From the IMG/VR virus record IMGVR_UViG_3300042540_001929, positions 48,746 through 112,745 of that record: a stretch of DNA of 64,000 nucleotides; one strand, written 5' to 3'. Every line of letters starts with the position of its first letter. The first letter of the stretch is position 1. The position numbers and the translations under genes were made by a program. Origin of the DNA: a virus. Positions 1 through 62,258 of this stretch are shown piece by piece. The notes beneath the pieces were generated by a model. It was not told where the DNA came from. It saw nothing but the letters and a program-made list of their open reading frames with translations, and did not search any database.

Positions 1-24
1 TATCAAAAATGATTCGGGAGTGAT

Positions 25-32
25 GATATATA
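25..32 (+). promoter_or_regulatory. Candidate late promoter, GATATATA
   Basis: GATATATAAG lies at the extreme left of the window, upstream of the scaffold-like gene. It is identical to the motif found before most operon-leading genes here. The gap to the ATG at 95 is 62 nt, longer than the 17-31 nt seen elsewhere, so this copy is less certain. It also overlaps the first codons of a longer reading of the frame that starts at GTG 20 or ATG 23. Confidence 0.4.
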
Positions 33-94
33 AGGTTGACGATAATGAAGAATTTAAAAAAATACTCAAATCAGACAAAAATAAAAATAACATC

Positions 95-1429
95 ATGGAG
101 TCCAGAAAAGAATATGTAACGAGTGAAGAACTCAACAATTATTCCATTTTCTTAAAGAAAAAAATGGATGAGCTCGAGTCTCAAATCCGCGAGGCTAAGA
201 CCACTCAGAATTTGGTAGAAAGCTCAGATTCTTATACAAAACAACTCGAGGAAAGAGTAGATCGTCTAGAAAAATACTGCGAGTATTTGGCAGAAAATCT
301 GGAAGCATCTATCAAGTATGGCGAATACGTTGCAGAGAATTTGGACAACTCCATTACTTACAGCAAATATCTCGCAGAGAATCTTGACAAGAATATCTCC
401 TATTCTAAATACCTCGCAGAGAACGTTGACAAGTCAATTTTGTATTCCGAGTATGTGGCAGAGAACGTGGATAAAGGTATTAACTACTCTAAATATCTCG
501 CAGAAAAATTGGATGACACCATTCAATATTCCGAATATCTTGCAGAGAATGTGGATCACACTATTGCCTACTCAGAATATCTGGCAGAAAATGTAGACAG
601 AAATATTTCTTATTCTGAATATCTCGCAGAGAAGTTAGATAGAAACATTTCTTATGCTGAATATCTCGCGGAGAATTTGGACAAAGGTATTGCCTACTCA
701 GAATATCTTGGTGAAAACCTTGATAAAGGTATTGCCTACTCAGAATATATTGGCGAAAAATTAGAACAAGGAATTTCTTATTCCGAATATTTGGCAGAAA
801 ATGTAAACAGAACAATTTCTTATTCTGAATACATAGCCGAAAAATTAAATGGCACGATTTCGTACACCGAGTCTTTGTCTGAAAGCGTAGGATATCAACC
901 AGTGGTTGAAAAAGACGCACGGAGACAGGCAGAAGTCGCCTCAAGAACTGAATTAGCGGAGTCTGGGTTTGCAGGAGATTATACAAATCTTGGCAAACAA
1001 ATTGATTTCCTAATTGAGTCGGTCCAAACCCAAAAGACCGAAAATGATCAAAGAAAGGCTGAAAGCAAATGGCAGCCTACTGCTCAAACACAAAAAGCAG
1101 AACAAGTTCTCAACGAGAATGCAGACGCCAAACCAACATCTGGCCACAAGTTCATCGACGAGATGCCAACAGAGTATGCTCCGATTTGGGAGTCATTGAG
1201 CGAAGGACATAAGCAATCAATTATTGCCCAGTCTATTTTCCACAATCTCAATACACCTTATCAGATCAGAAATTTCTGGTCAACCCGTCAATTTGGACCT
1301 AAGCCTCTGGCTATGCAAAAATTGCAAGAGAACGAAAACATATCAGAGTCTTCAAACAGTCAGGCAACCGCTGCTTACAGCAACGATTATCTGAGCTGGG
1401 TGGCTAAGTCACTAGAAGGCAAATTCTAA
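95..1429 (+). CDS. Scaffold-like protein with fifteen 14-residue repeats
   Basis: This 444-residue protein sits directly upstream of the major capsid gene, the place of the gp22 scaffold in T4. Residues 60-269 are fifteen tandem 14-residue units of the form x-Y-S-E-Y-L-A-E-N-L-D-K-x-I. That period equals two heptads and fits a long helical rod or coiled coil. Every unit contains [LVI]-[AGS]-E, the site type cut by T4-like prohead proteases. The C-terminal 80 residues (around DEMPTEYAPIWESLSEGHK) look like a compact domain, followed by a low-complexity tail. ATG 95 is preferred because the frame upstream (GTG 20, ATG 23) overlaps a promoter-like motif; the longer form remains possible. The scaffold role is inferred from position, repeat design and cleavage motifs; no homology search was possible. 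An internal head protein is the alternative. Confidence 0.6.
   Translation: MESRKEYVTSEELNNYSIFLKKKMDELESQIREAKTTQNLVESSDSYTKQLEERVDRLEKYCEYLAENLEASIKYGEYVAENLDNSITYSKYLAENLDKNISYSKYLAENVDKSILYSEYVAENVDKGINYSKYLAEKLDDTIQYSEYLAENVDHTIAYSEYLAENVDRNISYSEYLAEKLDRNISYAEYLAENLDKGIAYSEYLGENLDKGIAYSEYIGEKLEQGISYSEYLAENVNRTISYSEYIAEKLNGTISYTESLSESVGYQPVVEKDARRQAEVASRTELAESGFAGDYTNLGKQIDFLIESVQTQKTENDQRKAESKWQPTAQTQKAEQVLNENADAKPTSGHKFIDEMPTEYAPIWESLSEGHKQSIIAQSIFHNLNTPYQIRNFWSTRQFGPKPLAMQKLQENENISESSNSQATAAYSNDYLSWVAKSLEGKF
272..901 (+). repeat. Fifteen 42-bp (14-codon) coding repeats
   Basis: Fifteen diverged 42-bp units encode the helical repeats of the scaffold-like protein. The protein pattern is much better conserved than the DNA: codons vary freely while the Y-x-x-Y-[LVI]-[AG]-E core is kept, which points to selection on the peptide rather than recent duplication. 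Confidence 0.9.
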
Positions 1430-1454: not shown

Positions 1455-3182
1455 ATGAAACTAATTAACGAAGCTGAGATCTTCGATACCTGGTCGCCTA
1501 TCATCGAACAGAAAGCTGGTATCACTGATCCTTCTAAAAAAGCGTGGTTGTCTAAATACTGCCACTATCACTCCCTCAACGAATCTGCCGGTGCATACCA
1601 GTCGTTGAACGTTGTCAACGGCATGGGTCCCGTTGCACCTCCTGTCTTTCCTGGAGCAACACAAGCTACTTCGGTTGGTGGTTACGGTCCTAACCAAGGA
1701 TTCTACAGCCAATCTTGGCAAGGTTCTGGCGATAAGTTTCCTTCACTTCTTCCTTTGGCTATTCAGGTAGCTGCGAAGACTGTAGGTTTCGATATCGTTC
1801 CAGTTATTCCTATGTCAGGTCCTTCTGGCGTTTTGTCTTACCTCGACTACGTGTATGCCGGTGGTAAACTCAGTCCTCAATCCGTAGGTACTACCGCAGC
1901 CGATGCTTTGGCCGCTGCTCCTGCAATGATCAAATTGCAAATCACCACCCAGACAGACATGTCTTTACTAGTAGTAGGACCAGGCACACCAGGTACTACG
2001 TATTACATTACTAACGCTACATCAGCAGGTGCTTATATCTCTGCTAGGTTTGTTGGTCTTTCTAGGATTGACGGCTTCCCGATCTTCGAAATTATCGGAA
2101 TTACAGAAGGCGAATCTGTTGCTTCCGTTGTTAATGGGGGTGCAACTAAAGTTGGTACTTCAATCAACGGAGCTGAAGTTGGTACTACCACATCTACTGC
2201 TTCTTTGGTTAAAGCTTTGGAAGATCATATCCAAGGTTTCTCTGGAGCTGGTTTCTATGACGACCAGAACTGGCAGGGTCCTTTCGTAGATGGTACGAGG
2301 ACTTACAATCCAATGCTTAGAGGCGTAGGTGAAGAAAACTACTACAACTTGATGGGTCTTTCGACCTTCACGAAGTTCGTAGAAGCTGACACCTTCCAGG
2401 TAGCTGCTTCCGTCACTACGGAGCAAATCCAGGACCTTAACAAGCAGTTCGGTATCGACGTCATTTCTATGATCGAGAACGCACTGGTTAATGAGGTTTC
2501 TCAGGCGATTAACAAGCACATTCTGGCCAGAGCTTTTGCTCTCGGTTGGTCTAACTGTTATGACTTCAACACAGTTGAAGGTCAAAACCTGAACCTGAAT
2601 TTGGTTCTTGGTGGACTTGCTGGTTCTTACACCATTCCTTCCTATGTTGGAAAAACAGACCAGCCTTTGACTATGACTGGTACCGCAGGTCCTGCAAATG
2701 GTGGATATGAAAACTTGTCAACTCTACAGAGAAGACTTTTCTCCCGTATCCTTGCAGCCGCTAACGTGGTAGCAAACAGAGGTAGAAGGGGTCCTGCTAA
2801 CTTCATCGTCACCAATGCAAACTTGGCTTCGGCGATGCAAGATATCAGCCAATTCACCTTTGCTCCTTTCACCAATACCTTGACTCAGAACAACGGTACT
2901 TTGTACCCAGTTGGATCTTTGGCCGGTATGACCGTGTATGTGGATCAAAACATGAGGTACAACGACACCAGAATCCTCGTTGGAAGAAAAGGTGGTGATG
3001 ATGAGCCAGGTCTCAAATTCATGCCTTACATGATGGCAGAATCGATTCAGACAATCTCTGAAGGTACAATGTCACCTAAAATCGCAGTTAAGTCTCGTTA
3101 CTCTCTAGTAGAAGCTGGTTTCCACCCAGAAACCATGTATCTCTGCTTCAATGTTAACCTGCCTACTGGCGGTCTGGTTTAA
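1455..3182 (+). CDS. Major capsid protein, gp23-like
   Basis: This 575-residue protein forms the head shell. Around residues 110-125 it has F-D-I-V-P-V-I-P-M-S-G-P-S-G, matching the gp23 region FDICGVQPMNSPTG, followed by the conserved Y-V-Y-A-G-G; the C-terminal KSRYSLVEAG region also fits the family. T4 gp23 is 521 residues, so this is slightly longer. The first 43 residues end in S-L-N-E before S-A-G, a site like that where T4 gp21 removes the gp23 propeptide (L-T-E|A), so the mature protein probably starts at Ser44. Codon use is richer in C-ending codons than the neighbours, as expected for the most abundant virion protein. It follows the scaffold-like gene by 25 nt of A-rich leader with no Shine-Dalgarno sequence, and is followed by a strong terminator. 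Confidence 0.93.
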   Translation: MKLINEAEIFDTWSPIIEQKAGITDPSKKAWLSKYCHYHSLNESAGAYQSLNVVNGMGPVAPPVFPGATQATSVGGYGPNQGFYSQSWQGSGDKFPSLLPLAIQVAAKTVGFDIVPVIPMSGPSGVLSYLDYVYAGGKLSPQSVGTTAADALAAAPAMIKLQITTQTDMSLLVVGPGTPGTTYYITNATSAGAYISARFVGLSRIDGFPIFEIIGITEGESVASVVNGGATKVGTSINGAEVGTTTSTASLVKALEDHIQGFSGAGFYDDQNWQGPFVDGTRTYNPMLRGVGEENYYNLMGLSTFTKFVEADTFQVAASVTTEQIQDLNKQFGIDVISMIENALVNEVSQAINKHILARAFALGWSNCYDFNTVEGQNLNLNLVLGGLAGSYTIPSYVGKTDQPLTMTGTAGPANGGYENLSTLQRRLFSRILAAANVVANRGRRGPANFIVTNANLASAMQDISQFTFAPFTNTLTQNNGTLYPVGSLAGMTVYVDQNMRYNDTRILVGRKGGDDEPGLKFMPYMMAESIQTISEGTMSPKIAVKSRYSLVEAGFHPETMYLCFNVNLPTGGLV

Positions 3183-3203
3183 TCCTAACCAGATAACAAC
3201 AAG

Positions 3204-3231
3204 AACCCCAGGCTTCGGTCTGGGGTTTTTT
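3204..3231 (+). terminator. Strong rho-independent terminator after the capsid gene
   Basis: A 10-bp stem (3204-3213 with 3218-3227, one G-T pair) is closed by a C(TTCG)G tetraloop, the very stable UUCG class, and runs into a T tract (226-231). It lies 22 nt after the capsid stop and just before the next promoter-like motif, so it should isolate the head operon. Confidence 0.92.
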
Positions 3232-3245
3232 GTTTGTGAAGAAAA

Positions 3246-3253
3246 GATATATA
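3246..3253 (+). promoter_or_regulatory. Candidate late promoter, GATATATA
   Basis: GATATATAG lies between the capsid terminator and the next gene, 21 nt before ATG 3275. Its position right after a terminator is the cleanest argument that this motif restarts transcription. Confidence 0.65.
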
Positions 3254-3274
3254 GATAAAAATAAAACCCAAGTC

Positions 3275-3856
3275 ATGTCAAAAGTAAAGGATTTTAATTC
3301 CTATATAGATTTACAATTTGGCTCAAAATCCAACGATTCTCACCTCAAAGAAGGGTTTATGGATTCTTTAGCAAATGCAATAGATTCAATAATGCCTTAT
3401 TCTAAGACCAAAACAATTAATTATATAGTAGATAATATTTTGGAATATGAAAAAGATTTGCTTCAAGCAAAATATGATTTGAAAAAAACTTTGCGTAATA
3501 TGGATCTTAAGTTGAAAGGTATTCGTGATAGAACACCAATCAATCAAGATGCAGTCGAATCAATCAAAGAACAAATTGAAGCGAAGAAAAATGAATATAA
3601 AGCTATGGTTAAATCAAAATCTACAGCAATTGAAAAAGCGAAAGAATTATTAAGAAAAGAGGGAGCGAAATCTCCACGTTTAAAAGAAGTTATAAAAGCA
3701 AAAATGGCTGAGTTAGAAATTGATTTAGCTGAATTTGAATATGATTTGGCTAAAAAAATTTCTGCAGAAGCTTCAGAAATTGAAAATCTAAAAGATGCTT
3801 TAGATCAGGCAAAGAAAGAAGCACAGGAAATGATAAATAAATTGACTACCCCTTAA
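3275..3856 (+). CDS. Coiled-coil protein with L-x-E leader
   Basis: This 193-residue protein is not recognised by family. Residues 1-26 form a leader ending in H-L-K-E before G-F, comparable with the cleavage site in the capsid protein. Residues 60-190 are almost wholly charged helix (K/E/L/A-rich) and should form a coiled coil. ATG 3275 is chosen because it lies 21 nt after the promoter-like motif; a longer reading from 3230 would run into the terminator and promoter. It is first of a run of four genes with the same kind of leader, right after the capsid gene, so a packaged internal head protein or a core component is a reasonable inference. Confidence 0.6.
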   Translation: MSKVKDFNSYIDLQFGSKSNDSHLKEGFMDSLANAIDSIMPYSKTKTINYIVDNILEYEKDLLQAKYDLKKTLRNMDLKLKGIRDRTPINQDAVESIKEQIEAKKNEYKAMVKSKSTAIEKAKELLRKEGAKSPRLKEVIKAKMAELEIDLAEFEYDLAKKISAEASEIENLKDALDQAKKEAQEMINKLTTP

Positions 3857-3870
3857 AATAAACACAAAAT

Positions 3871-4779
3871 ATGGTTTATAATTTTAAACAATGGGACCTT
3901 CACAATTCATTGAATGAAGGAAACTCAATGAAAGATATTTTAAATTGGTTTGGAAACTTTTTTGGTGGAAAAACAAGTAAGATTGATTCATATTTGGAAG
4001 ACATTATCCAAATAGAAGAAGATTACACAAAAGAATGGGATAAAATTGCTACCGAGATAGATGCTCTTCAGGTACAAAAGGCCCAAATTACAAACGATCC
4101 AGCGGAATCTAGAAAGTTGGATCGTATGATTGATAGGAACGAAAAACTACTTCAGTCTATGTTAGTTAAGAAAAATTCATCTATTTCTGATATAGAGGAA
4201 AAGGTTAGAAAAATTGTGGAAAAAAATTCTAAATTAGTCTCTTATTGGAATTTGAAGAAAAGCAGGGCAGAAAAAGAAATTGCTGAACGCTTATATGATG
4301 TGGCAAAAAAACTTACCAACACAGATCTAGGAGAAGAACTATATGATAAGTACAAAAAGGCTGCTTTGATTGCCAAAGAAAAAGATGAGGATTTCAGAAA
4401 AAAATATGGCGAGATGAAATTGCCAACCGAAGAATTCGTTAAGTCTTCTTCTGTAAAAATGTCTAAAAATTACGGTCCTTCTAAAATTGCCAAATCTACT
4501 CTCAATAAAATTTTGGGTTATTCTGGAACTGAATTTGAAAAATACGCACAAGAATTAGGTAAAGAAAACACAAAAGATCTAATAAGAGAATTGACACGGG
4601 TTAAAAATGAAATGTGTGCTATTAGAGATCTAGATGTGGAAAGATTAGAAGCAGACGCGGCTAAAATTGGTATGAGCGATGCTCAGCTTAAAAGAGAAAT
4701 TAGAGACTTGAAAACAAAGCATACCGACAAAATAGGTGACGTCAGAACGAAAATAACAATAGCCAGAAGATATGACTAA
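3871..4779 (+). CDS. Coiled-coil protein with LNE leader
   Basis: This 302-residue protein starts with M-V-Y-N-F-K-Q-W-D-L-H-N-S-L-N-E before G-N. The aromatic/hydrophobic leader ending in LNE resembles the capsid-targeting peptides of T4 internal proteins (which end in IAE). The rest is mainly charged helix with two long coiled-coil segments (about residues 45-145 and 225-300). It lies 14 nt after the preceding gene and overlaps the next by 8 nt, so the run is one operon. It has no recognised enzymatic motif. An internal head or core role is inferred from leader and position. Confidence 0.6.
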   Translation: MVYNFKQWDLHNSLNEGNSMKDILNWFGNFFGGKTSKIDSYLEDIIQIEEDYTKEWDKIATEIDALQVQKAQITNDPAESRKLDRMIDRNEKLLQSMLVKKNSSISDIEEKVRKIVEKNSKLVSYWNLKKSRAEKEIAERLYDVAKKLTNTDLGEELYDKYKKAALIAKEKDEDFRKKYGEMKLPTEEFVKSSSVKMSKNYGPSKIAKSTLNKILGYSGTEFEKYAQELGKENTKDLIRELTRVKNEMCAIRDLDVERLEADAAKIGMSDAQLKREIRDLKTKHTDKIGDVRTKITIARRYD

Positions 4780-5041
4780 AATTATTTTAAATCTTGGGGA
4801 TTTCCCTTTGAACGAGGATGTTAATTCAGATTTAGTAAATGCTAAGAAGGCGGTGAATGATCAATTGCAAGCCATTAGGGACGAAATCCAAAATGAAAAG
4901 AATCAATCAGAGGTAGCTCAAAAAACTGCCAGTTTAAAAAAACAAGCGACTCTATATGCTGCATTACCTGCTATGCTGAATAAACTGGCAACATCAATGG
5001 AAGCTAAAGAAAAATCTGGAGATAAAACAAACATATACTAA
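4772..5041 (+). CDS. Small helical protein with LNE leader
   Basis: This 89-residue protein begins T-K-I-I-L-N-L-G-D-F-P-L-N-E before D-V, again a leader ending in LNE at residue 15. The remaining 74 residues are a charged helix. ATG 4772 overlaps the preceding stop, which suggests translational coupling. If the leader is cut, the mature product would be a short basic/acidic helical peptide, similar in size to T4 internal proteins. No family was recognised. Confidence 0.55.
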   Translation: MTKIILNLGDFPLNEDVNSDLVNAKKAVNDQLQAIRDEIQNEKNQSEVAQKTASLKKQATLYAALPAMLNKLATSMEAKEKSGDKTNIY

Positions 5042-5043
5042 AG

Positions 5044-7503
5044 ATGAGAAATTATTTCACTCACAACCCTGCTGCAAAATCTATTATTACAGATTTTATG
5101 AAGCTTAATGAAAATGCCTCGGTGGACAATCTTCTTAAAAGAGCAACAGAGATTTGCTTAGATACATTCAAAAAAATTGTTTTTGATCTTGCCTCTCAAG
5201 AAAATCGCAACCCTGATGTTTTAAGATCCATGTTGTTGGATATTGCATCCGCCAAAACTGTCAAAAGCTTAGTTGCCAAAATCAAAGATTATGCAGGGGA
5301 GTCTGAATTGGCAGATTCTAGATTTTCTAAGGTTAAAAATATGTATATGAATGCCTTAAATTCTATGGGTGATGCATTGAAAAGATTGGTTGAAATTGAT
5401 TCTAAATTAGAGGATTCTATTATTGATTCTTACAAAACTTCAGCTAATCGATTAATTTCCTCTTTGGATTCTATTGCATTAAGTTTTTCAAAAAAGAAAG
5501 CGACTAATGAATCTTCAAGTTTTGATTTTAATTCAAATTCTTTGAACGAGTCTCTCGTAGGGTTTAGCGGTAGAATCGAAAAACTAAGAAAAAAACTTGT
5601 TAATTTGATTTCTGATTCCAAAGGAAAGGATGCAAAAAATGGATATGGGAGAGACTGGCAAAGACTGTTTTCTTCACTGGAACAAAAATTAGAAGCCATT
5701 GAAGACTCCAAAGATTTAACTGGCGAGAAAGACAGAAAAACTTTGTCTGAACTAGAAAAACAAACAGATTCTCTTTCCGAAGAATATTACAATTACAAGA
5801 TTAGAACTGCAGAGATGAGTATGAAAAAGATCATTGATGACGATGAACTTGTGACAAAATATTCAGATGTGAATCAAATTATTACCGATGCTTTGGACAT
5901 TATAGCAAAAGCAAATGGTCAAGAGTTATTGATAGATAAAACTATCAGGGAAGAAATGGATGAGATGGAGCAGAAGGTGATTCAAAAAATTTTCCCGATA
6001 AAAATTGGAGCAAAGGACACAGACCTGAAATTTAAAAAGTCTGGTATTATCACTGCTGTACAGAAATCTTTAATGTCATCTTTCCCCTCTTTTAAAACTT
6101 TCTTACAAAAACATGGAGGGGCGGATGGTAAATACGGTAAAGCAACATCAATTGCAATCAAGTCTATCCAATCTTTACTTGGAAATAAAAACGCAAATGG
6201 TGAATTGGATAAACCCCTTTTCGATTCTCTCCTGAAAATGGAGCAAATCTCCGGCGAAAACAAAAAAATGTTAACAAATGCTTTGGGTGTTTTGAAAAAA
6301 ACATATGCTATGTCAGAATCCAAGGTTTTAGGAATAGAGAATTTCTCAAAATTATTTGAAGCCATTTTTATCGATGATGATGATCTAGAAAGAGAAATCC
6401 AAAAAAATTCAGCAGATTTGGCTAATATGCCCGAAAATAGTTCTGCAAAAGATAAAGAAGAGAAAACATCAGAAGATTCTAAATTAGCAAAAAAATTATC
6501 AAAGCTGTTAAGAAACGGTTACAACAAAAATGCAGAAGAGGAGGATTTTTTGAAAGAAGATGGAACACTTAAGAGTTCTTATCCGAATGAATTCGTGAGT
6601 GCGTGGATTAGTACACTAGAAGAAAACTCTAGCTCATCTGATAAACCTGGCTTCTTTTGGTTCCAAGAGCCTGATGAAAAAACGGGTGCTCTTTATTCAA
6701 CTAAAAGATTGGCAGGTAATTACAAAAAACCATATAATTGGGAAAAATGGAAGGAATTTTCAGGAGGGGAAACTTCACAAGAAAAAGATTCTTTCGCAAG
6801 ATGGTACACGAGCTACTACACAGGGTTTGGTGGTTTAGAAGACATTCAAAAAGAAAAGGTAATTAAAGAACTACTTGACTTCTATTCAAATCCAAAAAAC
6901 TCCTCTATGGTTAATCCAAAATTGGCTGATTCTTTCAACGATTGTGCTAGTTTTTATGATGACATAAAAGATGCAATTAAGGCAGGTAAATCTTCACCGG
7001 ATTCAGATTCATATGAATACTTTAAACAGGGATATTTGACTTCTGAAGCCATGGCAAAAATCTTAGAGGCTGCTTCAACTGCTGCACAAATAGATGATGA
7101 AGAGCCAGATTTAGGATTCTATGATTTTTTGATGCTTTCGATCTGTGTATTCCTTTGTGGATCTTCCATAGCTTGGAATTCTGAAAAGAAAAAATGGGAT
7201 TCAGCTTTGAATATTTTGAAGAATAAGGTATTGACAGAGGGTGTTTTAAAGAAAATCTCGGATGTTAAAGTGGTAGAAAATGATCCCAAATCGCCAATCC
7301 CATCATTGAATAAACAAGGAATAGAGATATTGACTAAGGGATATGATGGTAACTCCAAAAAAATCTTCAAAGAAAATTTAGAAAGAGCCTCTAAAGTTCT
7401 TGTTCCTTTAGTCGAAAGACATGCAGATAGAATGAATTACAAGAAGAAGGAAGACATTAAAACATTCGACTCTAAGAATGTGTTTGTGGTTAATTTAGAT
7501 TGA
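5044..7503 (+). CDS. Large head-associated protein with PG-binding-like domain
   Basis: This 819-residue protein has a leader ending in M-K-L-N-E at residue 23 and a second LNE at 167-169 in F-D-F-N-S-N-S-L-N-E-S, with an L-F-E at 437-439. Residues about 333-400 match the peptidoglycan-binding type 1 pattern (A-V-Q-K-S-L, then D-G-K-Y-G-K-A-T, then A-I-K-S-I-Q). The N-terminal third is helical; the C-terminal half is globular and acidic. It starts 2 nt after the preceding stop. The repeated L-x-E sites split it into segments, so it may be processed into several products during head maturation. The PG-binding-like fold could instead serve protein-protein contacts. No whole-length family was recognised. 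Confidence 0.6.
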   Translation: MRNYFTHNPAAKSIITDFMKLNENASVDNLLKRATEICLDTFKKIVFDLASQENRNPDVLRSMLLDIASAKTVKSLVAKIKDYAGESELADSRFSKVKNMYMNALNSMGDALKRLVEIDSKLEDSIIDSYKTSANRLISSLDSIALSFSKKKATNESSSFDFNSNSLNESLVGFSGRIEKLRKKLVNLISDSKGKDAKNGYGRDWQRLFSSLEQKLEAIEDSKDLTGEKDRKTLSELEKQTDSLSEEYYNYKIRTAEMSMKKIIDDDELVTKYSDVNQIITDALDIIAKANGQELLIDKTIREEMDEMEQKVIQKIFPIKIGAKDTDLKFKKSGIITAVQKSLMSSFPSFKTFLQKHGGADGKYGKATSIAIKSIQSLLGNKNANGELDKPLFDSLLKMEQISGENKKMLTNALGVLKKTYAMSESKVLGIENFSKLFEAIFIDDDDLEREIQKNSADLANMPENSSAKDKEEKTSEDSKLAKKLSKLLRNGYNKNAEEEDFLKEDGTLKSSYPNEFVSAWISTLEENSSSSDKPGFFWFQEPDEKTGALYSTKRLAGNYKKPYNWEKWKEFSGGETSQEKDSFARWYTSYYTGFGGLEDIQKEKVIKELLDFYSNPKNSSMVNPKLADSFNDCASFYDDIKDAIKAGKSSPDSDSYEYFKQGYLTSEAMAKILEAASTAAQIDDEEPDLGFYDFLMLSICVFLCGSSIAWNSEKKKWDSALNILKNKVLTEGVLKKISDVKVVENDPKSPIPSLNKQGIEILTKGYDGNSKKIFKENLERASKVLVPLVERHADRMNYKKKEDIKTFDSKNVFVVNLD

Positions 7504-7545
7504 TGTTAAAAATTTGATGTTTCATTCTTATTTTTAGCCCCAATC

Positions 7546-7902
7546 ATGAATAAAATACTTTTTCTCATTCTACTTACTTTTGTTTCTTGCCGGAAAGAAT
7601 TGGATATAAAACCAATTGATCCAAAATATTCGAAAGATTTAGTAAACCAAGAGATAATTCAACCAGCTTTAGATCAAGCAAAAATTCTAAGCAGAGATTC
7701 TCTTTTTTATCCCTTAAATTCAAGTTTGGCCGTTTTTCATAGTCAATTCCCAAATGAATTCAGAAAATTCGAAAGTTTACGAGGGGATAAAGAAAGAGCC
7801 AATTTTTTGAAAAGGAATCATAAGTTCAGAAAAATTTGGAAGAAACTAGGTAATAATGAAAAGAAATTGAATTCAATTAATTCTATAAAAACTTATCAAT
7901 AA
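7546..7902 (+). CDS. Small predicted lipoprotein
   Basis: This 118-residue protein starts with M-N-K followed by about 11 hydrophobic residues and F-V-S-C at residues 12-15, a plausible lipobox, so it is probably lipid-anchored after cleavage before Cys15. The mature part is basic and Lys/Asn-rich with no recognised domain. It is 42 nt after the preceding gene, with no separate promoter seen. Phage lipoproteins include outer spanin subunits and superinfection-exclusion proteins; nothing here decides between them. Confidence 0.55.
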   Translation: MNKILFLILLTFVSCRKELDIKPIDPKYSKDLVNQEIIQPALDQAKILSRDSLFYPLNSSLAVFHSQFPNEFRKFESLRGDKERANFLKRNHKFRKIWKKLGNNEKKLNSINSIKTYQ

Positions 7903-7984
7903 ATTTATAGAAATAAGATTATATCAATTGAATACACCATCAGTTTTACAATCTATTCTAAAGTGTGAATTTTTTTCGAAACAT

Positions 7985-7992
7985 TATCTTTG
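7985..7992 (+). promoter_or_regulatory. Possible host-type -7 box, TATCTTTG
   Basis: TATCTTTG fits the Bacteroidetes -7 consensus TAnnTTTG and lies 18 nt before ATG 8011 in a 108-nt gap. No convincing TTG-type -33 element is seen at the usual distance. It would give the P-loop/asparagine synthetase pair expression separate from the late genes. Confidence 0.35.
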
Positions 7993-8010
7993 TGTTTTAA
8001 TTAAATTCAC

Positions 8011-8547
8011 ATGATCACAATTTTTGAAGGAGCAAGAAATTCTGGTAAAACTTTTCTGGCGAACAAATACTCCCAGCAAACGGGAATGCAAATTTACAAA
8101 TTTGAATTTGCTGGATGGTTTTCTGGATTGATGATTCCAGACGAAGATCCAAAGACACATTATTTTGCATTAGGAAAAGAGGCCATGCTACTTCAGCTCA
8201 ATAGAGATGGACTCCTGCCTCATTTTATCTTGGATCGGGGATTTCTCACTGTTTTAACCTGGGGGATTATCAGCAAAAGAATCACTCAGCAGGAAGCTTC
8301 ACAACAACTTAATCTTTTGAGGGATAAAGGACTTTTGGTAAACCTAAAGATAGTTCTAGTTGAAGGCACAAACCCAGAATCCAGAACTAAAGACCAATGG
8401 GATTTTCGAGAGGGGTCTGCAGAGGAAAAAGAAACTCTTTTAAATATAATTTCTGCTGTTCAATTTCTTCAGCCTGATTTAGAAGTTGTGAAACTTACTA
8501 ATGACTTTACCCATATGACCACAAAGAATTTAATTCATTTGATTTAA
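8011..8547 (+). CDS. P-loop NTPase, kinase-like
   Basis: This 178-residue protein has a perfect Walker A motif at residues 7-14 (G-A-R-N-S-G-K-T) right after a first beta-strand, the layout of small nucleotide or nucleoside kinases. An aspartate-rich strand follows at L-D-R-G (about residue 75). Residues 115-140 hold a possible lid (E-G-T-N-P-E-S-R-T-K-D-Q-W-D). The stop is 1 nt before the asparagine synthetase start, so the two are co-expressed. The substrate cannot be read from sequence; thymidylate-kinase-like is the closest impression. Confidence 0.6.
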   Translation: MITIFEGARNSGKTFLANKYSQQTGMQIYKFEFAGWFSGLMIPDEDPKTHYFALGKEAMLLQLNRDGLLPHFILDRGFLTVLTWGIISKRITQQEASQQLNLLRDKGLLVNLKIVLVEGTNPESRTKDQWDFREGSAEEKETLLNIISAVQFLQPDLEVVKLTNDFTHMTTKNLIHLI

Positions 8548-8548
8548 T

Positions 8549-9985
8549 ATGTGTGGTATTTTTATTAATATAGACGGGGAAACCTCGAGATTAAATTCTA
8601 TGTCACATAGAGGTATAGAATCAAATACGATTGAAAGAGATGGAGTTTTTTTATCCCACACTAGACTTCCAATCCAAACAGAAGAAGGGGATGGGTGGAA
8701 ACAACCAATTGAAATTTCACCAGGGATTTTCTTGCTTTACAATGGTGAGATCTTTAACTATGACACCACAGTCTTTGGTTCAGACATAGAATATCTTTGT
8801 CAAACATTTGCCCCTTGGAAGGGAGGATCTTTCCAAATGTTTTGTTCTTTGTTCGTTCCTAGAATTCAAACCTGGGATGGATTTTGGGCGATAGCTATCT
8901 ATGATTCCAAATCTAAAGACATTATTTGTTTTACCGATCCGCTTGGGAAAAAATGTTTATACACCAACGATGATGGCGAGCTAGCTTCCGAAATAAAGGC
9001 GGTTCAACATTGGTTTAGCCCTCAAGATTCACATTTCATTTCGACAGTTAGAAAATTTGGATATGTAACCGACGATTCAACCCCCTACAGAGACGTTAAA
9101 AGAATTTTACCCAACACGATTTATTATTACAATTTGGAAGTTCCCGGTTTTAAATCTACTTACTCTAATTATTATAGAGGATTTAACTTCCCAATTGAAA
9201 ATCTAACACCCGGAGATTATGAAGCTCACATGGAGTGGCTGTGGGCAAAACTTTTTGAATCTGTTCAAAACAGATTAATTTCTAAAAATTATCCTATTTC
9301 ACTACTTGTTTCTGGTGGTTTAGATTCATCTATCATTGCTGGGATCTTATCACAAATGTCTCCAGAGGTAAAATGGTTTTCTATAGAAAATGGAGAATCC
9401 AAGTTTGTTAAAATCCTGTCTGAATTTTACCAAAAGGATGTTAATTTTTTGGAGTACAACATGGATGAGTCTAAAATTAAAAAAATCTATCAAAAATGGA
9501 ATGAAAGCCCTATTGATTTGGGTTCAGTAGTACCTCAATTTTTTCTCTTTGAATCGGTTAAAAATCAAGGAAATTCTAGAATTGTTTTAAGTGGAGACGG
9601 AGCAGATGAACTTTTCGGAGGTTATTCAAGAATTCACGAGTATGATTCCCAGTTTTCTGATATATTCGATGAATTGAGATTTTACCACCTTCCCAGATTG
9701 GACAAGCTTTCAATGGCACACACATTGGAACTTAGAAATCCTTTTTTACACCTTGACATAGTTCGATTTGCTTTACATCTACCAAGAGAATGGAGAACAG
9801 ATAAAAAAATTCTGAAAGATACATTTGGGCCTCTACTTCCCTCTGAAATTGTGGATCGTCCTAAAGAGGCTTTGAAAAATCCAAAAATCAAAGAGAACAA
9901 ATTGAAGTATCGTCAACAGGCAGTTGACCTTTTTCTTGAAGTTGAACAAACCGAATCATTTTCAAAAGTAGAAGTAGATATATAG
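8549..9985 (+). CDS. asnB: Asparagine synthetase, glutamine-hydrolysing
   Basis: This 478-residue enzyme should make asparagine from aspartate, ATP and glutamine in the cytoplasm. It starts M-C-G-I, giving the Cys nucleophile of class II glutamine amidotransferases, with S-H-R-G-I-E-S, S-H-T-R-L-P-I and L-Y-N-G-E-I-F-N-Y as the other glutaminase-pocket motifs. The synthetase half has the PP-loop S-G-G-L-D-S-S at about residues 254-260 and S-G-D-G-A-D-E-L-F-G-G-Y at about 350-360. It is shorter than the about 554 residues of E. coli AsnB, mainly at the C-terminus, but no core motif is missing. It is a probable auxiliary metabolic gene, coupled to the P-loop protein. Its last codons overlap the promoter-like motif of the next gene. 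AsnB-like amidating enzymes with other substrates exist, so the exact acceptor is inferred. Confidence 0.85.
   Translation: MCGIFINIDGETSRLNSMSHRGIESNTIERDGVFLSHTRLPIQTEEGDGWKQPIEISPGIFLLYNGEIFNYDTTVFGSDIEYLCQTFAPWKGGSFQMFCSLFVPRIQTWDGFWAIAIYDSKSKDIICFTDPLGKKCLYTNDDGELASEIKAVQHWFSPQDSHFISTVRKFGYVTDDSTPYRDVKRILPNTIYYYNLEVPGFKSTYSNYYRGFNFPIENLTPGDYEAHMEWLWAKLFESVQNRLISKNYPISLLVSGGLDSSIIAGILSQMSPEVKWFSIENGESKFVKILSEFYQKDVNFLEYNMDESKIKKIYQKWNESPIDLGSVVPQFFLFESVKNQGNSRIVLSGDGADELFGGYSRIHEYDSQFSDIFDELRFYHLPRLDKLSMAHTLELRNPFLHLDIVRFALHLPREWRTDKKILKDTFGPLLPSEIVDRPKEALKNPKIKENKLKYRQQAVDLFLEVEQTESFSKVEVDI
9977..9984 (+). promoter_or_regulatory. Candidate late promoter, GATATATA
   Basis: GATATATAG forms the last codons and stop of the asparagine synthetase gene (GAT ATA TAG) and lies 17 nt before GTG 10002. 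Placement across a stop codon is repeated at 61984. Confidence 0.6.
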
Positions 9986-10001
9986 AAAAAAAGTCTACCT
10001 A

Positions 10002-10724
10002 GTGAAAATTCAAAAAGTTCAAAATTTCGACGAATTTACTTCCAAAAAAATAAACGAAGCAAACGATTCATTTTTTTCCTTCGATTTTTTAGGAAATCTA
10101 TTTACAAAAGGATTTGATGCTTTCACCGATGTACTGAAAGGAAAGGTTACTGCCCATATTTTTGAATATTTGGGGATTGGAGAGGGATCAATTCTTTCCA
10201 AATTGGTACAAAACTTTGTTGAAACTATCCCAGTAAAAGATTATTATGCCATTTTATTCAAAGGTAAAATTAGTGCTCCATATTTGGCTCCTAAAGCAGC
10301 ACAAGCAACAATTGAATTTTTAATAGAAATGGGGCCAGATGGAATAGCAAAAAATTTAGGAATTACCGATACCAACGGATATTTATACCGAACAATTTCG
10401 GAGATGCTCACCAACGAAGTTACAAAAAAAGATTTCTCAAAAAAATTAGAAAATTTCTATCTTTCTATGTTTGGTGGATTACCAGAAACTTCTGCAGAAG
10501 ATTTTAAGAAATCGCTTAATCCCCAGGAAAAAACGAAAATAGAAAATGAATTGGCTGCAAAAGCCAAAGAAAAAGGCATTCCCACAGAAAACCCTAAAGA
10601 AAAAAACACAATGTTGGACAACTTCTTTTCTAATTTAGGATCAATGAACCAGGCAAACCCAACCCAAATCGGTAACACATCAGGGGAGGATTTATTCACG
10701 ACCCTTCTTCAACCAAAAAAATAA
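10002..10724 (+). CDS. Protein of unknown function with INE leader
   Basis: This 240-residue protein starts at GTG (no in-frame ATG is near) with a leader ending in K-K-I-N-E before A-N-D at residue 19; I-x-E before Ala is the exact form of the T4 internal-protein site. The region after it is aromatic (S-F-F-S-F-D-F-L-G-N-L-F), then helical with some hydrophobic stretches, and the last 70 residues are polar and probably disordered. It begins a two-gene unit between a promoter-like motif and a strong terminator. A packaged or capsid-associated protein is inferred from the leader; no family was recognised. Confidence 0.55.
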   Translation: MKIQKVQNFDEFTSKKINEANDSFFSFDFLGNLFTKGFDAFTDVLKGKVTAHIFEYLGIGEGSILSKLVQNFVETIPVKDYYAILFKGKISAPYLAPKAAQATIEFLIEMGPDGIAKNLGITDTNGYLYRTISEMLTNEVTKKDFSKKLENFYLSMFGGLPETSAEDFKKSLNPQEKTKIENELAAKAKEKGIPTENPKEKNTMLDNFFSNLGSMNQANPTQIGNTSGEDLFTTLLQPKK

Positions 10725-10733
10725 AATCAAATC

Positions 10734-11075
10734 ATGAATATAAATGATGTATCAAAAAGAGAAATTTTAGATTTTAAAGATTTTCTGGGTAAGGTTATGG
10801 ACAATACGTTCAAACCGTTAGCCGCAGAAAATCAAAAAGATTCTTACGATAGAACAGGATTTCACAAGATCAAAAGAGAACCTGCCTATGACTTTGTGGG
10901 TTATGCCGATGCCGTCTTTTCTCCAGATAAAGCTGGTATTGGATTGCCTGGTTACAACGCTGGTAAAGACAGGCAGTACATCAACGCCATTGGTGGTCCA
11001 GGTTTAACCCCAACAACAACCAACGAATCTGAGGCAATTGATTACACCAAAATCAAAAGACTAGAGGATTTCTAA
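10734..11075 (+). CDS. Small protein of unknown function
   Basis: This 113-residue protein is not recognised. It begins with a short helical stretch (R-E-I-L-D-F-K-D-F-L-G-K) and has a Gly/Pro-rich centre (A-G-I-G-L-P-G-Y-N-A-G-K-D-R). It lies 9 nt after the INE-leader gene and is the last gene before a strong terminator, so the two are one transcription unit. It has no clear L-x-E leader of its own. A virion role is plausible only by association. Confidence 0.5.
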   Translation: MNINDVSKREILDFKDFLGKVMDNTFKPLAAENQKDSYDRTGFHKIKREPAYDFVGYADAVFSPDKAGIGLPGYNAGKDRQYINAIGGPGLTPTTTNESEAIDYTKIKRLEDF

Positions 11076-11093
11076 AGATTTTGTTTTTAATAG

Positions 11094-11125
11094 AAGGACG
11101 GGTTTGAAACTCGTCCTTTTTTTTT
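11094..11125 (+). terminator. Rho-independent terminator
   Basis: AAGGACG at 11094-11100 pairs with CGTCCTT at 11112-11118. The stem extends inward by a G-T pair and three more pairs to a 3-nt loop, and runs into nine Ts (11117-11125). It ends the two-gene unit 10002-11075. Confidence 0.9.
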
Positions 11126-11136
11126 GGTATAAGAAT

Positions 11137-11144
11137 TAAATTTG
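11137..11144 (+). promoter_or_regulatory. Possible host-type -7 box, TAAATTTG
   Basis: TAAATTTG fits TAnnTTTG and ends only 4 nt before ATG 11149, so a transcript from it would be nearly leaderless. It lies right after a terminator, where a new promoter is needed. No -33 element is visible because the terminator stem occupies that position. Confidence 0.35.
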
Positions 11145-11148
11145 TCGT

Positions 11149-11820
11149 ATGTCCAAAATTCGTTTGGTTCACATTTTAACCGAAATAGATACACCTAGGG
11201 AAATAGCTTCCATTGCTTCTTTGTCTCCCCTTGGAAATATGGGATTAGAATATGCTCAACAAGTAAACCAAAGATATACTGGAGATGACTGGAAATTAAC
11301 TAAAGCTTTGTGTCAGAATGAATTTACCAATCATGGCCCTGGACACTATGGAGCTTTCCAATCGTTCAAGAAGGCAATGTTGGAAAATTTTGATGATGAT
11401 CTAGATGCCTTGATCCTGTGTGAGTGTGATTGTGTACTAGAAGTAACCCCGGAAGATTTCATGAAGACAGTATATAGGGCTATTGAATTTTGTAACAAAC
11501 ACGAGATACGTTATTTTTCCCTTGGCTCTAGATTTGTGAATGGATTTTTACAGTCCCCAGTCTCTGAAACAGACCCAGATTTTCCTGAATTTTATACAAC
11601 ACCAAAAATTATTTTGGCCCATTGTGTTATCTTACACCGTTCTGGTAGAGAATTTTATTTGAACCGTTTAGGAGAGAATAATTGGGATTCTCCGGATTTG
11701 TGGTTCAATGAAATAAATTGGCTACACGGTAACAATAAATTCGGTATCTCTTGGGAAAGATCTGCATTCCAACACGAGGGTCATTCTTTAATTGATGACT
11801 GCTGGAAAAATTCACAGTAA
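11149..11820 (+). CDS. Probable glycosyltransferase
   Basis: This 223-residue protein looks like a GT-A-fold sugar transferase. It opens with a beta-strand (I-R-L-V-H-I-L-T), has a strand ending in an acidic cluster L-I-L-C-E-C-D-C-V-L (about residues 87-96) in the place of a metal-binding D-x-D, and a late W-x-x-x-x-x-x-H-E-G-H. Phages use such enzymes to glycosylate DNA or virion proteins; the acceptor here is unknown. It is monocistronic: a terminator precedes it and a convergent gene overlaps its end by 9 bp. The family call rests on fold pattern only. Confidence 0.5.
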   Translation: MSKIRLVHILTEIDTPREIASIASLSPLGNMGLEYAQQVNQRYTGDDWKLTKALCQNEFTNHGPGHYGAFQSFKKAMLENFDDDLDALILCECDCVLEVTPEDFMKTVYRAIEFCNKHEIRYFSLGSRFVNGFLQSPVSETDPDFPEFYTTPKIILAHCVILHRSGREFYLNRLGENNWDSPDLWFNEINWLHGNNKFGISWERSAFQHEGHSLIDDCWKNSQ

Positions 11821-12522
11821 AGCCACTTGACTTTCTAAATCTTTAATGAAAAGTTCTTTGGCGATCTTTAAAATGTTAGATTCCTCATTGAAGTCTTCTT
11901 GAATTTCAATAACCGTGACTTTTGAATTTGGTGCTTGGACTCCAACAGTAACCAAAATTTCATTTACAAGATGATCATAGGATATTGAAAAAAAATTGTT
12001 AGAAATTCTAACTCTTTTCATCATAATTCCAAAGGAAGAAGCATTAGAATATCTGGACCACCAGTATGAATAAATTTCATCAGTGGCAAGATTTCTAACC
12101 AATAAAATACCTAAATCTGAATTTTTCTTGTCTGGAGTCAGATTGTAAACCGAAATTCTTTTTTCTAACTTTTTCCAAATGTTTGTTCCCAGCTCGGCGT
12201 ACTTATACAAACAATCCAAAGATAAATCAACAATTTCCCGAAGTTCTTCTTTTTCTTCTTCTGTAAATTTTGAATCTATGAATTTTTCAAAAATCTGAAT
12301 TTCTTCCTGATCCATTTTTTGAAGATCTAATTTTTCGTTTGCCAAAATTTTTTCAGACAATTTTAAACCTTTAATAGAAGAAAAAATTTGTTGAATGGGA
12401 TGATAAATGTTGTCCCTTCGAATTTCTTCATTTACTTCTTGTAGAAAGTCTAACAAAATGTACTGTTTGTGTTCGGTATCTATTGGTAACTGTAGAAACC
12501 AGGTGGACTCGAGATTTTTCAT
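11812..12522 (-). CDS. Protein of unknown function, minus strand
   Basis: This 236-residue protein is one of only two genes on the minus strand. The N-terminal half is acidic and helical (residues 60-120, many Glu/Lys). The C-terminal half has alternating strands (I-L-V-T-V-G-V, K-V-T-V-I-E-I). It contains no catalytic motif that I recognise. It overlaps the glycosyltransferase-like gene by 9 bp tail to tail. A G-AATATATA motif lies 31 nt upstream of its ATG, so it may be transcribed with the late set. Confidence 0.55.
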   Translation of the reverse strand: MKNLESTWFLQLPIDTEHKQYILLDFLQEVNEEIRRDNIYHPIQQIFSSIKGLKLSEKILANEKLDLQKMDQEEIQIFEKFIDSKFTEEEKEELREIVDLSLDCLYKYAELGTNIWKKLEKRISVYNLTPDKKNSDLGILLVRNLATDEIYSYWWSRYSNASSFGIMMKRVRISNNFFSISYDHLVNEILVTVGVQAPNSKVTVIEIQEDFNEESNILKIAKELFIKDLESQVALL

Positions 12523-12553
12523 GACCGTTGGTTTAAATTTTTGAAATTCATCA

Positions 12554-12561
12554 TATATATT
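12554..12561 (-). promoter_or_regulatory. Candidate late promoter, AATATATA, minus strand
   Basis: Read on the minus strand the sequence is GAATATATATG, the same form as that before 54705 and before phoH. It is 31 nt upstream of the ATG at 12522. Confidence 0.45.
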
Positions 12562-12596
12562 CTTGAGTCAGCCCTAAAAAGGAAAATGGAGTTGAC

Positions 12597-12604
12597 GATA
12601 TATA
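12597..12604 (+). promoter_or_regulatory. Candidate late promoter, GATATATA
   Basis: GATATATAAAC lies 19 nt before ATG 12624, in the gap between divergent genes. Together with the minus-strand motif at 12554-12561 it makes a divergent promoter region. Confidence 0.6.
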
Positions 12605-12623
12605 AACAAAGTAATTGTCATAC

Positions 12624-13058
12624 ATGAGAATTCAAGATTTTGGTTCATATTCAGTTCAAAAGAAAAAAAGGTTCACCTCGGAGCACACTTTCACAGCATC
12701 TTTGGATTATGTTGATGTCAAATTGACCAACCGCCCTCCTGAATTGTCGGATGTAGACGATTTAAAATGTGAGATTGAATATGAGATTTCGATTGAAAGA
12801 CAAAAACAAGGAGTTCAGGATATATCATTCAAAATAAACCAAATTGAATTGGAGGTTAAAGTGGACGACCATCCGGATGATCCGAAAGAGTTTGAATTTG
12901 AAATTGTTCCTGGGGAAAATATTGATTCCAATCTGGTAGTTATACGCAAGGGAGAATCTTTAATTCCAACCGATCCCACCTTTTTACACATCGATATGAA
13001 AAAGTCAGCTAAAGTAGCGGATTTCAAAGTTACAGTCTTGTTTGGAAAAAATGAATAA
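12624..13058 (+). CDS. Small protein of unknown function
   Basis: This 144-residue protein begins M-R-I-Q-D-F-G-S-Y. It is rich in beta-branched residues and acidic (residues 30-110 look like an all-beta domain), with no recognised motif. ATG 12624 is chosen over TTG 12615 because of codon identity and its spacing from the promoter-like motif. The stop overlaps the next start (ATG 13051) by 8 nt, so the two are translationally coupled and probably work together. The order promoter, small beta protein, LNE-leader protein suggests a late-expressed pair. Confidence 0.5.
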   Translation: MRIQDFGSYSVQKKKRFTSEHTFTASLDYVDVKLTNRPPELSDVDDLKCEIEYEISIERQKQGVQDISFKINQIELEVKVDDHPDDPKEFEFEIVPGENIDSNLVVIRKGESLIPTDPTFLHIDMKKSAKVADFKVTVLFGKNE

Positions 13059-13941
13059 TTTGGTTCCCTATTTTGAAGAATTTTTTTCTCTAAATGAGTC
13101 AAAATCTTCTGGAAAAAAAAATTTAGGCATCATAGGACCTTTGGCAAACTGGTCACTTAAACTTCAAGTATATCCGGAACCTAATCAGGGTATGATTGGA
13201 TATGCCATAGATGAAAATTGGGTCGAGCTGGAACACAATGACAAAAAAGTTAGATTTCCGAAATCCTGCTGTGAAATGAAGTCCAATACAAAATCGGCGG
13301 TCATCCACATAAAACCTTACACGAAGTGGTTTTCAAAATTGAAGAATCGAGAAGAAATGGAAGATTTTATCGATAATTTCGTCGAGTCCAACACGGTTAA
13401 AAAAGAAAGTGGTCTGGAGAGAATATCGGAAAACACCCAAATTATTTTGGATTTATTTGGAATACATTCACAAGTACAAAATAATCAGATGAGGTTTCCC
13501 GGACTTTATGAATTGAAATTGGACAATGGAATGGAGGTAGAGATGGAAAAAAATGAAGGATCTGAACTTTTTTCTGAACTGAAAGTTTACAAATCTGGAG
13601 ATGCTAAATTTCCAGACATCAGGATTAAAAGAAAAAACAACCAATATCTGATGGAATTCAGAGGGCCTTCTGGAAAATTTATTGAGTCCGAAGAATCACT
13701 CGTAGATCTTTTCGAAAATAGAATTTGCACATACCTAACTAAATGTGTTTTGGGCATGGATTGCTCAGAAGAAGAATCACATTTAATCGGGAGGTTGAAA
13801 GAAACTTTGTCTGAAAAAGTGGATCTAAAAAATTCAGATAAGATAGAAAAGAGAAAAAAAATGATTGAAAATCTGAGAGATGTCTTAAGCAATTCGATAG
13901 AGAATTCTCTACTGGAAGACATTTTGCAAGGCGAAAATTAG
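13051..13941 (+). CDS. Protein of unknown function with LNE leader
   Basis: This 296-residue protein starts M-N-N-L-V-P-Y-F-E-E-F-F-S-L-N-E before S-K-S: an aromatic leader of 16 residues ending in LNE, nearly the same length and layout as that of the gene at 3871. The remainder is a mixed alpha/beta protein with a helical C-terminus (residues 240-296). ATG 13051 is preferred to TTG 13042 since it gives the leader the same form as its relatives. Delivery into the head with release by the prohead protease is inferred from the leader; no family was recognised. Confidence 0.55.
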   Translation: MNNLVPYFEEFFSLNESKSSGKKNLGIIGPLANWSLKLQVYPEPNQGMIGYAIDENWVELEHNDKKVRFPKSCCEMKSNTKSAVIHIKPYTKWFSKLKNREEMEDFIDNFVESNTVKKESGLERISENTQIILDLFGIHSQVQNNQMRFPGLYELKLDNGMEVEMEKNEGSELFSELKVYKSGDAKFPDIRIKRKNNQYLMEFRGPSGKFIESEESLVDLFENRICTYLTKCVLGMDCSEEESHLIGRLKETLSEKVDLKNSDKIEKRKKMIENLRDVLSNSIENSLLEDILQGEN

Positions 13942-62012: not shown

Positions 62013-62258
62013 ATGAGAAAATTTTCTGAACTGACGAAGATGAATGAAATGAAATATGGTCAACCCATGTACGGAGAAAATGACATGAAACAGCACATGA
62101 AGAATTTGCTGGTTGCCGCTTCTGGAAACGACCAAAGAGTTTTGAACGACGTGGTAGACTGTCTCTCCGACGAGCAGATGAAAAAGTGCTACGATAATCT
62201 TGTCAAAGTTTACAACTACACGGGGAAAGTAGGACAAGCCGTTGAACCCAACCTTTAA
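62013..62258 (+). CDS. Small protein with MNE leader
   Basis: This 81-residue protein begins M-R-K-F-S-E-L-T-K-M-N-E before M-K-Y-G, a leader ending in M-N-E that matches the head-protein series less strictly. The rest is helical with a second half D-D-V-V-D-C-L-S-D-E-Q-M-K-K-C. No family was recognised. It is the first gene of the last transcription unit of the window. Confidence 0.45.
   Translation: MRKFSELTKMNEMKYGQPMYGENDMKQHMKNLLVAASGNDQRVLNDVVDCLSDEQMKKCYDNLVKVYNYTGKVGQAVEPNL

Follow-up and report, generated by a model that had tools for sequence, protein, structure and literature searches.

Short T4-type N-terminal leaders as candidate capsid-targeting sequences on tens of huge-phage proteins, including enzymes

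Why should several phage proteins with little else in common begin with the same kind of short leader? The question is raised by a 64,000-nucleotide stretch (the window), bases 48,746-112,745 of the 112,745-base viral contig IMGVR_UViG_3300042540_001929, in which the first-pass annotation singled out the capsid protein and the products at 3275, 3871, 4772, 5044, 10002, 13051 and 62013 as bearing N-terminal leaders that end in L/I-x-E and recall those of the T4 internal proteins. All eight N-termini are present with the terminal residues claimed for them. The shape of the leader is aromatic-x-x-aromatic, a spacer and L/I-x-E. Judging from sequence comparison, it is almost certainly real and selected at the protein level, and our analysis makes it very probable that these leaders are capsid-targeting sequences (CTS) of the T4 type, cut by the head protease and carried by tens of proteins, enzymes among them.

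The capsid gene has relatives in 31 named phage records, from Lak megaphages (Prevotella), uncultured huge phages and phages of Tenacibaculum, Flavobacterium, Chryseobacterium and 'Sphingomonas' (phage PAU, whose true host is Sphingobacterium; PMC3738902), and since the named relatives infect such hosts, the host of the present phage is probably also a member of Bacteroidota. From IMG/VR, the best 80 of 164 matching stretches were used, some of them on contigs of up to 434 kb. Five related contigs (G017, G014, G009, G003 and G006; 1649 genes pooled) served for training, and gene starts were set at the first ATG when one lay nearby.

The plain motif [LIVMF]xE is barely enriched (0.573 of N-termini vs 0.525 at interior positions in a loose scan of 150 families, with F-x-[ED]-aromatic alone behaving likewise) and is thus too common to count, so stricter tests and a two-block model were applied. 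Aromatic pairs in residues 2-20 are raised at spacing 3 only (0.266 of the 1649 genes vs 0.168 interior), and a hydrophobic-x-E-small site is raised downstream of spacing-3 pairs only (136/402 vs 167/987 interior; Fisher 3e-21, from rounded fractions). The third residue before the cut, left unrestricted, is L in 55 cases (17.9 expected), I in 47 (19.1), V in 16 (8.1), S in 15 (5.3) and A in 6 (3.7), while the residue following E, in matches that leave this position unrestricted, is S, A, G or N in 98 of 196. The model combines the aromatic pair and its six preceding residues with the four residues around the cut, leaving the spacer between the blocks free; it was trained on the five contigs, from a seed pattern that already demanded the aromatic pair and [LIVFMY]xE[ASGND], and looks at the first 45 residues only, within which the median leader size is 13-17 residues in the contigs.

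Genes scoring at least 13 number 92/611 in G017 (2.4 expected from shuffled and 1.5 from interior sequence), 52/478 in G014 (0.8 and 0.9), 43/351 in G009 (1.2 and 0.6), 31/294 in G003 (1.0 and 1.3) and 22/185 in G006 (1.0 and 0.4). Since a model favours its own training hits, contigs were also held out, the full model having selected the held-out training sets: with G017 held out and genes homologous to any training leader protein removed, 38/537 reach 13 vs 1.4-1.9 expected, and the other contigs give 11/405, 7/290, 5/249 and 3/148 vs at most 1.3 expected. Two more distant huge phages are also rich in high scorers, namely LR756500 (462 kb; 50/631, 2.9 expected) and the first 320 kb of LR756501 (735 kb; 48/407, 2.1 expected, with spacing 3 at 0.394 vs 0.181), which brings the total over seven contigs or records to 338 genes, false positives included. 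The suggestion that the device sits on many more proteins than in T4 is therefore borne out far beyond the genes first listed, with tens of leaders per megaphage contig.

In the window record, which played no part in training, 8/97 genes score at least 13 vs 0.4-0.7 expected. All eight lie among 23 head-region genes (limits drawn after the genes were seen) and none among the 32 tail genes (p 0.0004); the five strict leaders (3275, 3871, 4772, 10002 and 13051) alone give 5/23 vs 0/32 (Fisher p 0.0097). The other three are unclean, as 10734 and the upstream gene -6258 lack an L-x-E end and the capsid protein is scored on an internal IIE, not on SLNE. Among the 43 upstream genes none reaches 13 and one reaches 11. 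The leaders of the window downstream of the capsid gene are as follows (a slash marks the proposed cut; ortholog counts are those scoring at least 11 unless stated otherwise).

3275..3352, plus strand: leader of the 3275-3856 product, 26 residues, HLKE/G; 49/58 orthologs, median identity 30%
3871..3918, plus strand: leader of the 3871-4779 product, 16 residues, SLNE/G; 58/60 orthologs
4772..4816, plus strand: leader of the 4772-5041 product, 15 residues, PLNE/D; 25/25 orthologs found by BLAST
5044..5112, plus strand: possible, weak leader of the 5044-7503 product, 23 residues, KLNE/N; no aromatic pair
10002..10058, plus strand: leader of the 10002-10724 product, 19 residues, KINE/A; GTG start; 42/45 orthologs, median identity 35%
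13051..13098, plus strand: leader of the 13051-13941 product, 16 residues, SLNE/S; score 17.3
62013..62048, plus strand: leader of the small 62013-62258 product, 12 residues, KMNE/M; M follows the site

The leader persists in orthologs of the 3275, 3871, 4772 and 10002 products at median protein identities of 30-48%. In 36 aligned proteins of the 3871 type (25-74% identical to that of the window), 16 columns are invariant, those of F5 and E16 included, and W8 is conserved in at least 90%, while the stretch between the conserved residues varies in length. Control genes yield 0/52 (8011), 0/49 (8549), 0/16 (11149), 0/27 (11812), 0/24 (12624), 0/3 (7546), 0/56 (protease-scaffold gene), 0/50 (-5741) and 0/47 (-7277) orthologs at 11 or above. 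The upstream gene -4092 reaches this score in 30/52 orthologs, and three genes score often without a cut site at the end of the leader or at the proposed position, i.e. -6258 (36/50), the capsid gene (66/70) and 10734 (35/44); the last encodes a small, conserved protein (10734-11075) with a leader-like F-x-x-F start and PLAAENQ in place of the L-x-E end.

The individual leaders differ in strength. That of 10002 has the top score in the window (24.3); a tblastn search with the 10002 product gave no match in 50,697 phage records. The 13051 family has one member per contig in six contigs, all scoring 16.7-24.6, and no orthologs in the shorter loci, most of which stop before 13051. The 62013 product, initially rated a weaker member, does better than that: over 80 residues it shares 59% identity with the small protein G017:365372 (E 7e-35), the family of which bears the leader in 5/5 contigs with scores of 17.0-19.7. 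The weakest of the main set is 5044, with LNE/N lacking the aromatic pair and 3/56 orthologs at 11 or above (7/56 with other starts), so that its leader could be due to chance. The bodies are not all unrelated, as had been stated, for the 3275 and 3871 products are distant paralogs (27% identity over 115 residues, E 0.002).

What kind of leader is this? In T4, IPII and IPIII start MKTYQEFIAE and IPI starts MKTFKEFTSTTTPVSTITE, with A following in each. The model, never shown T4, ranks IPII, IPIII and IPI 1-3 of 249 T4 genes (scores 16.7, 16.7 and 15.5, next gene 12.6; 3/249 at 13 or above, 0.2 and 0.3 expected), so the likeness to internal proteins that the first-pass annotation pointed out is well founded. 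According to the accessible part of PMC9026906, T4 propeptides are 10-19 residues long, the first ten residues of IPIII suffice, leader residues 4 and 7 serve mainly targeting and 8 and 10 processing, and a foreign protein given the leader by fusion is packaged and delivered; there, and in the accessible part of PMC3012670, the leader is a known means for T4-like phages to load varied proteins. The leaders described here share with the T4 CTS the N-terminal position, the length of 10-19 residues, the aromatic pair at spacing 3, the variable spacer, I/L-x-E before a small residue, a gp21/S77 protease and unrelated bodies. They differ in number (22-92 genes at 13 or above per related contig vs 3 genes in T4), in the median leader length (15-17 residues), in the preference for N before E, in the enzymes among the cargo and in the fusion of the protease to a repeat scaffold. 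Five marks of a T4-type CTS were found: a shared leader on unrelated bodies, spacing 3, the cut site, the protease and the match to the T4 leaders.

Another comparison is with phiKZ and SPN3US, whose head proteins, as described in the accessible parts of PMC5694885 and PMC10052503, are also cut after Glu by a gp21-related protease and in some cases ejected into the host. In SPN3US, however, the motif is A-x-E and six of the eight N-terminal propeptides have 111-254 residues, only those of gp45 and gp225 being short; giant phages are described as using much longer propeptides (PMC5694885, same part), and those sources, as far as accessible, describe no common short aromatic leader on tens of proteins of phiKZ or SPN3US. 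Neither A-x-E (SPN3US) nor S-x-E (phiKZ) is the rule here, as L (55) and I (47) dominate over S (15) and A (6).

The gp21-type protease implied by the T4 comparison is indeed encoded, immediately upstream of the capsid gene.

1..1429, plus strand: C-terminal (scaffold) part of a head-protease/scaffold fusion; the gene (L004:10141-12171, 677 aa) starts 604 bases before the window
275..862, plus strand: 14 tandem 14-residue scaffold repeats, Y-S-E-Y-L-A-E-N-(V/L)-D..., each containing aromatic-x-x-aromatic-(L/V/I)-x-E
1455..3182, plus strand: major capsid protein of the T4 gp23 type (Pfam Gp23, E 2.2e-36)
1455-1583, plus strand: capsid propeptide, 43 residues, SLNE/S; SLNES in 73/73 family members

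The protease matches Peptidase_S77 (E 3.6e-8), phrog_207 head maturation protease (E 1.7e-38) and T4 gp21 (E 8e-7, BLASTP without composition correction), and its own N-terminus has [LIM]NE in 52/59 members. A protease-scaffold fusion is not in itself new, as the PTm1 gene annotated 'prohead core scaffolding protein and protease' shows. The leader-like core recurs along the scaffold part: 57 family members longer than 500 aa have 10-14 sites each (median 13; about 0.15 on shuffling), with 758 sites at spacing 3 vs 0-23 at spacings 1, 2 and 4-7, although the repeats form a single inherited array and therefore count as one observation, not 57. The scaffold of 121Q has no such leader-like repeats. 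Structure prediction gave only a poor model of the fusion (mean pLDDT 51.6; the repeats appear as helix), to which no weight was attached. The N-terminus of the capsid protein (1473-1508, AEIFDTWSPIIE) aligns with that of T4 gp23 (AELLNKWKPLLE) and is leader-core-like; the capsid protein may itself touch the scaffold there.

The cargo is diverse. Grouped by body, the leader genes make up 134 families with a member at 13 or above across six contigs, a count that includes false positives such as G003:9969. Of these families, 76 occur in one contig only and 58 in at least two; in 31 of these 58 all members score at least 9. Pfam was run on 40 of the 240 leader proteins at 13 or above from the five contigs, mostly one per family, and on 20 of the 98 from the two other huge phages. 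The cut-off was passed by 13/40 of the former, with adenylate kinase, RimK ATP-grasp, SLT transglycosylase, CHAP, AAA_5, RNase_T exonuclease, ClpB-like, PG_binding_1 (twice), OmpA (twice), phage lysozyme and DUF5661 domains, and by 9/20 of the latter, with glutamyl-tRNA synthetase (GluRS), radical SAM, TPM, DHH, PPK2, DUF2201, RecA-like and LRR (twice) domains. The adenylate kinase family scores 16.6-24.1 in 5/5 contigs, and in G017 its domain starts at residue 34, after a leader of 21 residues. The GluRS (L259:13267-14892, LR756501.1) is full (tRNA-synt_1c, E 9.7e-91; domain from residue 27) and begins with a leader-like 21-residue extension ending LMKE/S. The ClpB-like leader is present in 1/2 family members and may be false.

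Some leader proteins stand out individually. L238:975-1730 and L245:11859-12545 (LR756500.1), both leucine-rich-repeat proteins, have MKYIK-Y-DF starts. The G003 genes 147039, 148157 and 148953 (minus strand) are neighbouring paralogs with the common leader MKHLQSFSLFE/A, from a family of 14 members in 5 contigs, 10 with the leader and 4 without. A 622-residue leader protein with no Pfam match (L156:11932-13797 in G006; NFKDFSNSNVSE/A) lies directly behind the capsid gene, ahead of the genes that otherwise follow, in 1/10 listed loci.

Beyond these contigs, related leaders appear in other forms. In a 40-kb stretch of MA9V-2 (44 genes), the top two N-termini are MKNFFSFINE/A and MKTFTYFINE/A, the second adjoining the protease gene. 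Lak-A1 has 7/596 genes at 13 or above (2.6 and 2.2 expected) and a form of its own, LYE ... I/LNE (e.g. MNKKALYEAIMKDISKIVKKKINE/N), in 9/603 N-termini vs 2/2311 interior windows, so that Lak seems to have a separate leader dialect; this contrast is descriptive only, as the pattern was written after the Lak N-termini had been inspected. Applied to PAU without change, the model places the five genes that carry the annotation 'internal capsid protein' at ranks 10 (gp154), 15 (gp142), 24 (gp270), 43 (gp199) and 219 (gp70) of 297 (rank test, p 0.0097). A PAU form, MK-T/S-I/L-x-x-LYE, begins 13 genes including the scaffold gp152 and 3/5 internal capsid genes (p 0.0006), or 14 genes and 4/5 (p 1.5e-5) with gp270 (MKGLHNLYEAKLNE), noticed afterwards. 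Genes with these starts, half with LNE-type ends, lie near the head genes and elsewhere in PAU; unlike in the window, LYE replaces F-x-x-F, and 14/297 called genes are involved. The PAU capsid protein of 585 residues is reported to mature to 520, marked as from N-terminal sequencing data (PMC5646251, Table 1, as far as accessible); a cut at LME64/N would leave 521, which is close but not exact. Phage ribosomal protein S21 is described as having N-terminal extensions (accessible part of PMC7162821), which were considered as leaders and dropped: S21 was found in 2/15 records, and the one whose start could be read, that of LR756501, is a 66-residue frame without a leader.

By analogy with T4, the leaders would work as follows. 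The aromatic pair three residues apart (positions 4 and 7 in T4) would dock the protein on the growing head core; after closure of the shell, the gp21-type (S77) protease would cut after L/I-x-E and remove the leader; and the mature protein would stay inside the head with the DNA. The genes right behind the capsid gene are probably core proteins, and the remaining tens of leader proteins probably for the most part internal cargo; we lean towards the view that many of the cargo proteins are delivered to the host with the genome. The docking site of the leader is not known to have been resolved for T4. A tentative suggestion is that the leader mimics one scaffold repeat for docking: such an address would work by virtue of the scaffold's make-up, a polymer of 14 near-copies of the motif Y-S-E-Y-L-A-E-N. 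Equally tentatively, as a possibility that we would not favour outright, the head could be a general protein container, with about 15% of the genes of one contig tagged (adenylate kinase, Clp-like and ATP-grasp enzymes and cell-wall hydrolases in this clade; GluRS in a more distant huge phage), from which a start-up kit would enter with the DNA; the leader would be a single scaffold repeat joining the lattice, one protease would dissolve lattice and tags, and the tag dialect of each clade would match its own scaffold.

Several observations weigh against capsid targeting by these leaders, or against its generality. Leaders on a tRNA synthetase or an adenylate kinase are odd for head proteins, a gp24-like protein lacks the leader in three contigs, and we found no proteomics for this clade in the open-access literature. 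In the window record, the first loose pattern matched 8/97 genes with about 4 expected from interior positions; none of the 77 genes without homology to training leader proteins reaches 11, and spacing-3 pairs show no excess over interior positions in this partial record (0.152 vs 0.176), although single leaders there show the spacing. Some controls do reach 11 (-4844 5/52, -6819 2/48, -3312 1/52), and one false high scorer is a nucleotidyltransferase-like protein with a GRWQPLHE/GH start (G003:9969). Aromatic pairs in LR756500 are raised at spacings 3, 4 and 7, not at 3 alone; PAU and PTm1 show no rise at spacing 3, and Lak-A1 and T4 a slight one. PTm1 has 2/300 genes at 13 or above (0.6 and 1.5 expected) despite its S77 protease-scaffold gene, MaF61 1/188 (0.8 and 0.7 expected) and the 48-kb head region of 121Q 0/37. 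In PAU, [ILV]NE falls within the first 20 residues in only 7/14 leaders, gp70 has no leader and gp199 no LNE end; moreover, the PAU record states no basis for its notes, and the leader itself may have guided the depositors.

How else could the leaders be explained? The proteins that bear them may all be part of the structural core or scaffold, with the leader serving only to time their removal and little being carried to the host. The four post-capsid genes do adjoin the protease-scaffold and capsid genes, and the 3871 product is predicted as long helices (helical body, mean pLDDT 78.5, below 50 in most of residues 1-31), but the 134 families, 76 of them in a single contig, with their enzyme and cell-wall domains are unlike a fixed core, and we consider this explanation improbable. 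Still less probable is that the leader tags another phage-made cell structure, such as a replication site or membrane patch, with L-x-E incidental or used only on head proteins: the general-metabolism enzymes of the cargo (adenylate kinase, RimK, ClpB-like, GluRS, PPK2) could well act in the cell, but the cut site accompanies the aromatic pair, the leaders of the window cluster in the head region, and among T4 genes the proven capsid leaders fit the model best, with the PAU annotations pointing the same way. A chance origin, i.e. examples picked from the frequent L-x-E near N-termini, would agree with the small excess of the plain motif (0.573 vs 0.525) and of the loose pattern in the window record (8/97, about 4 expected), yet for the clade it is refuted by the held-out and shuffled controls, the spacing test and the conservation in orthologs, and its probability is very low. 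Conservation of DNA or RNA instead of peptide, as a start-region signal or recombination site, is the least probable of all, for although every leader sits at a gene start, the conserved residues use several synonymous codons (in 53 genes of the 3871 type, Asn AAC 27 and AAT 26, Glu GAA 42 and GAG 11, Leu six codons, and nine codons overall at the Leu/Ile/Val position) and the spacer varies in length.

The T4-type leader as such is known; its use on tens of huge-phage proteins, enzymes included, appears to be new, as no report of it was found in the open-access literature (subscription papers and most preprints lie outside this scope), and the accessible parts of PMC12363816, PMC12619734, PMC9723777, PMC7162821 and the jumbo-phage reviews PMC7824862 and PMC13282480 contain no such leader set. 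If capsid targeting is the function of these leaders, particle-borne proteins could be predicted from sequence alone in uncultured giant phages, where most genes lack known function, and the question of what huge phages inject becomes a testable list. The hundreds of natural leaders would also be material for learning how cargo is loaded into phage heads, and the scaffold repeats offer a hypothesis for the docking site.

Three further genes lie among the head genes of the window. The 8549-9985 product is asparagine-synthetase-like by eye (MCGIF... start; 49 orthologs, none with a leader), that of 8011-8547 is by eye a small P-loop protein (52 orthologs, none with a leader), and 7546-7902 encodes a small protein with a lipoprotein-like signal, LLTFVSC, also recognised by eye, with 3 orthologs in the loci.

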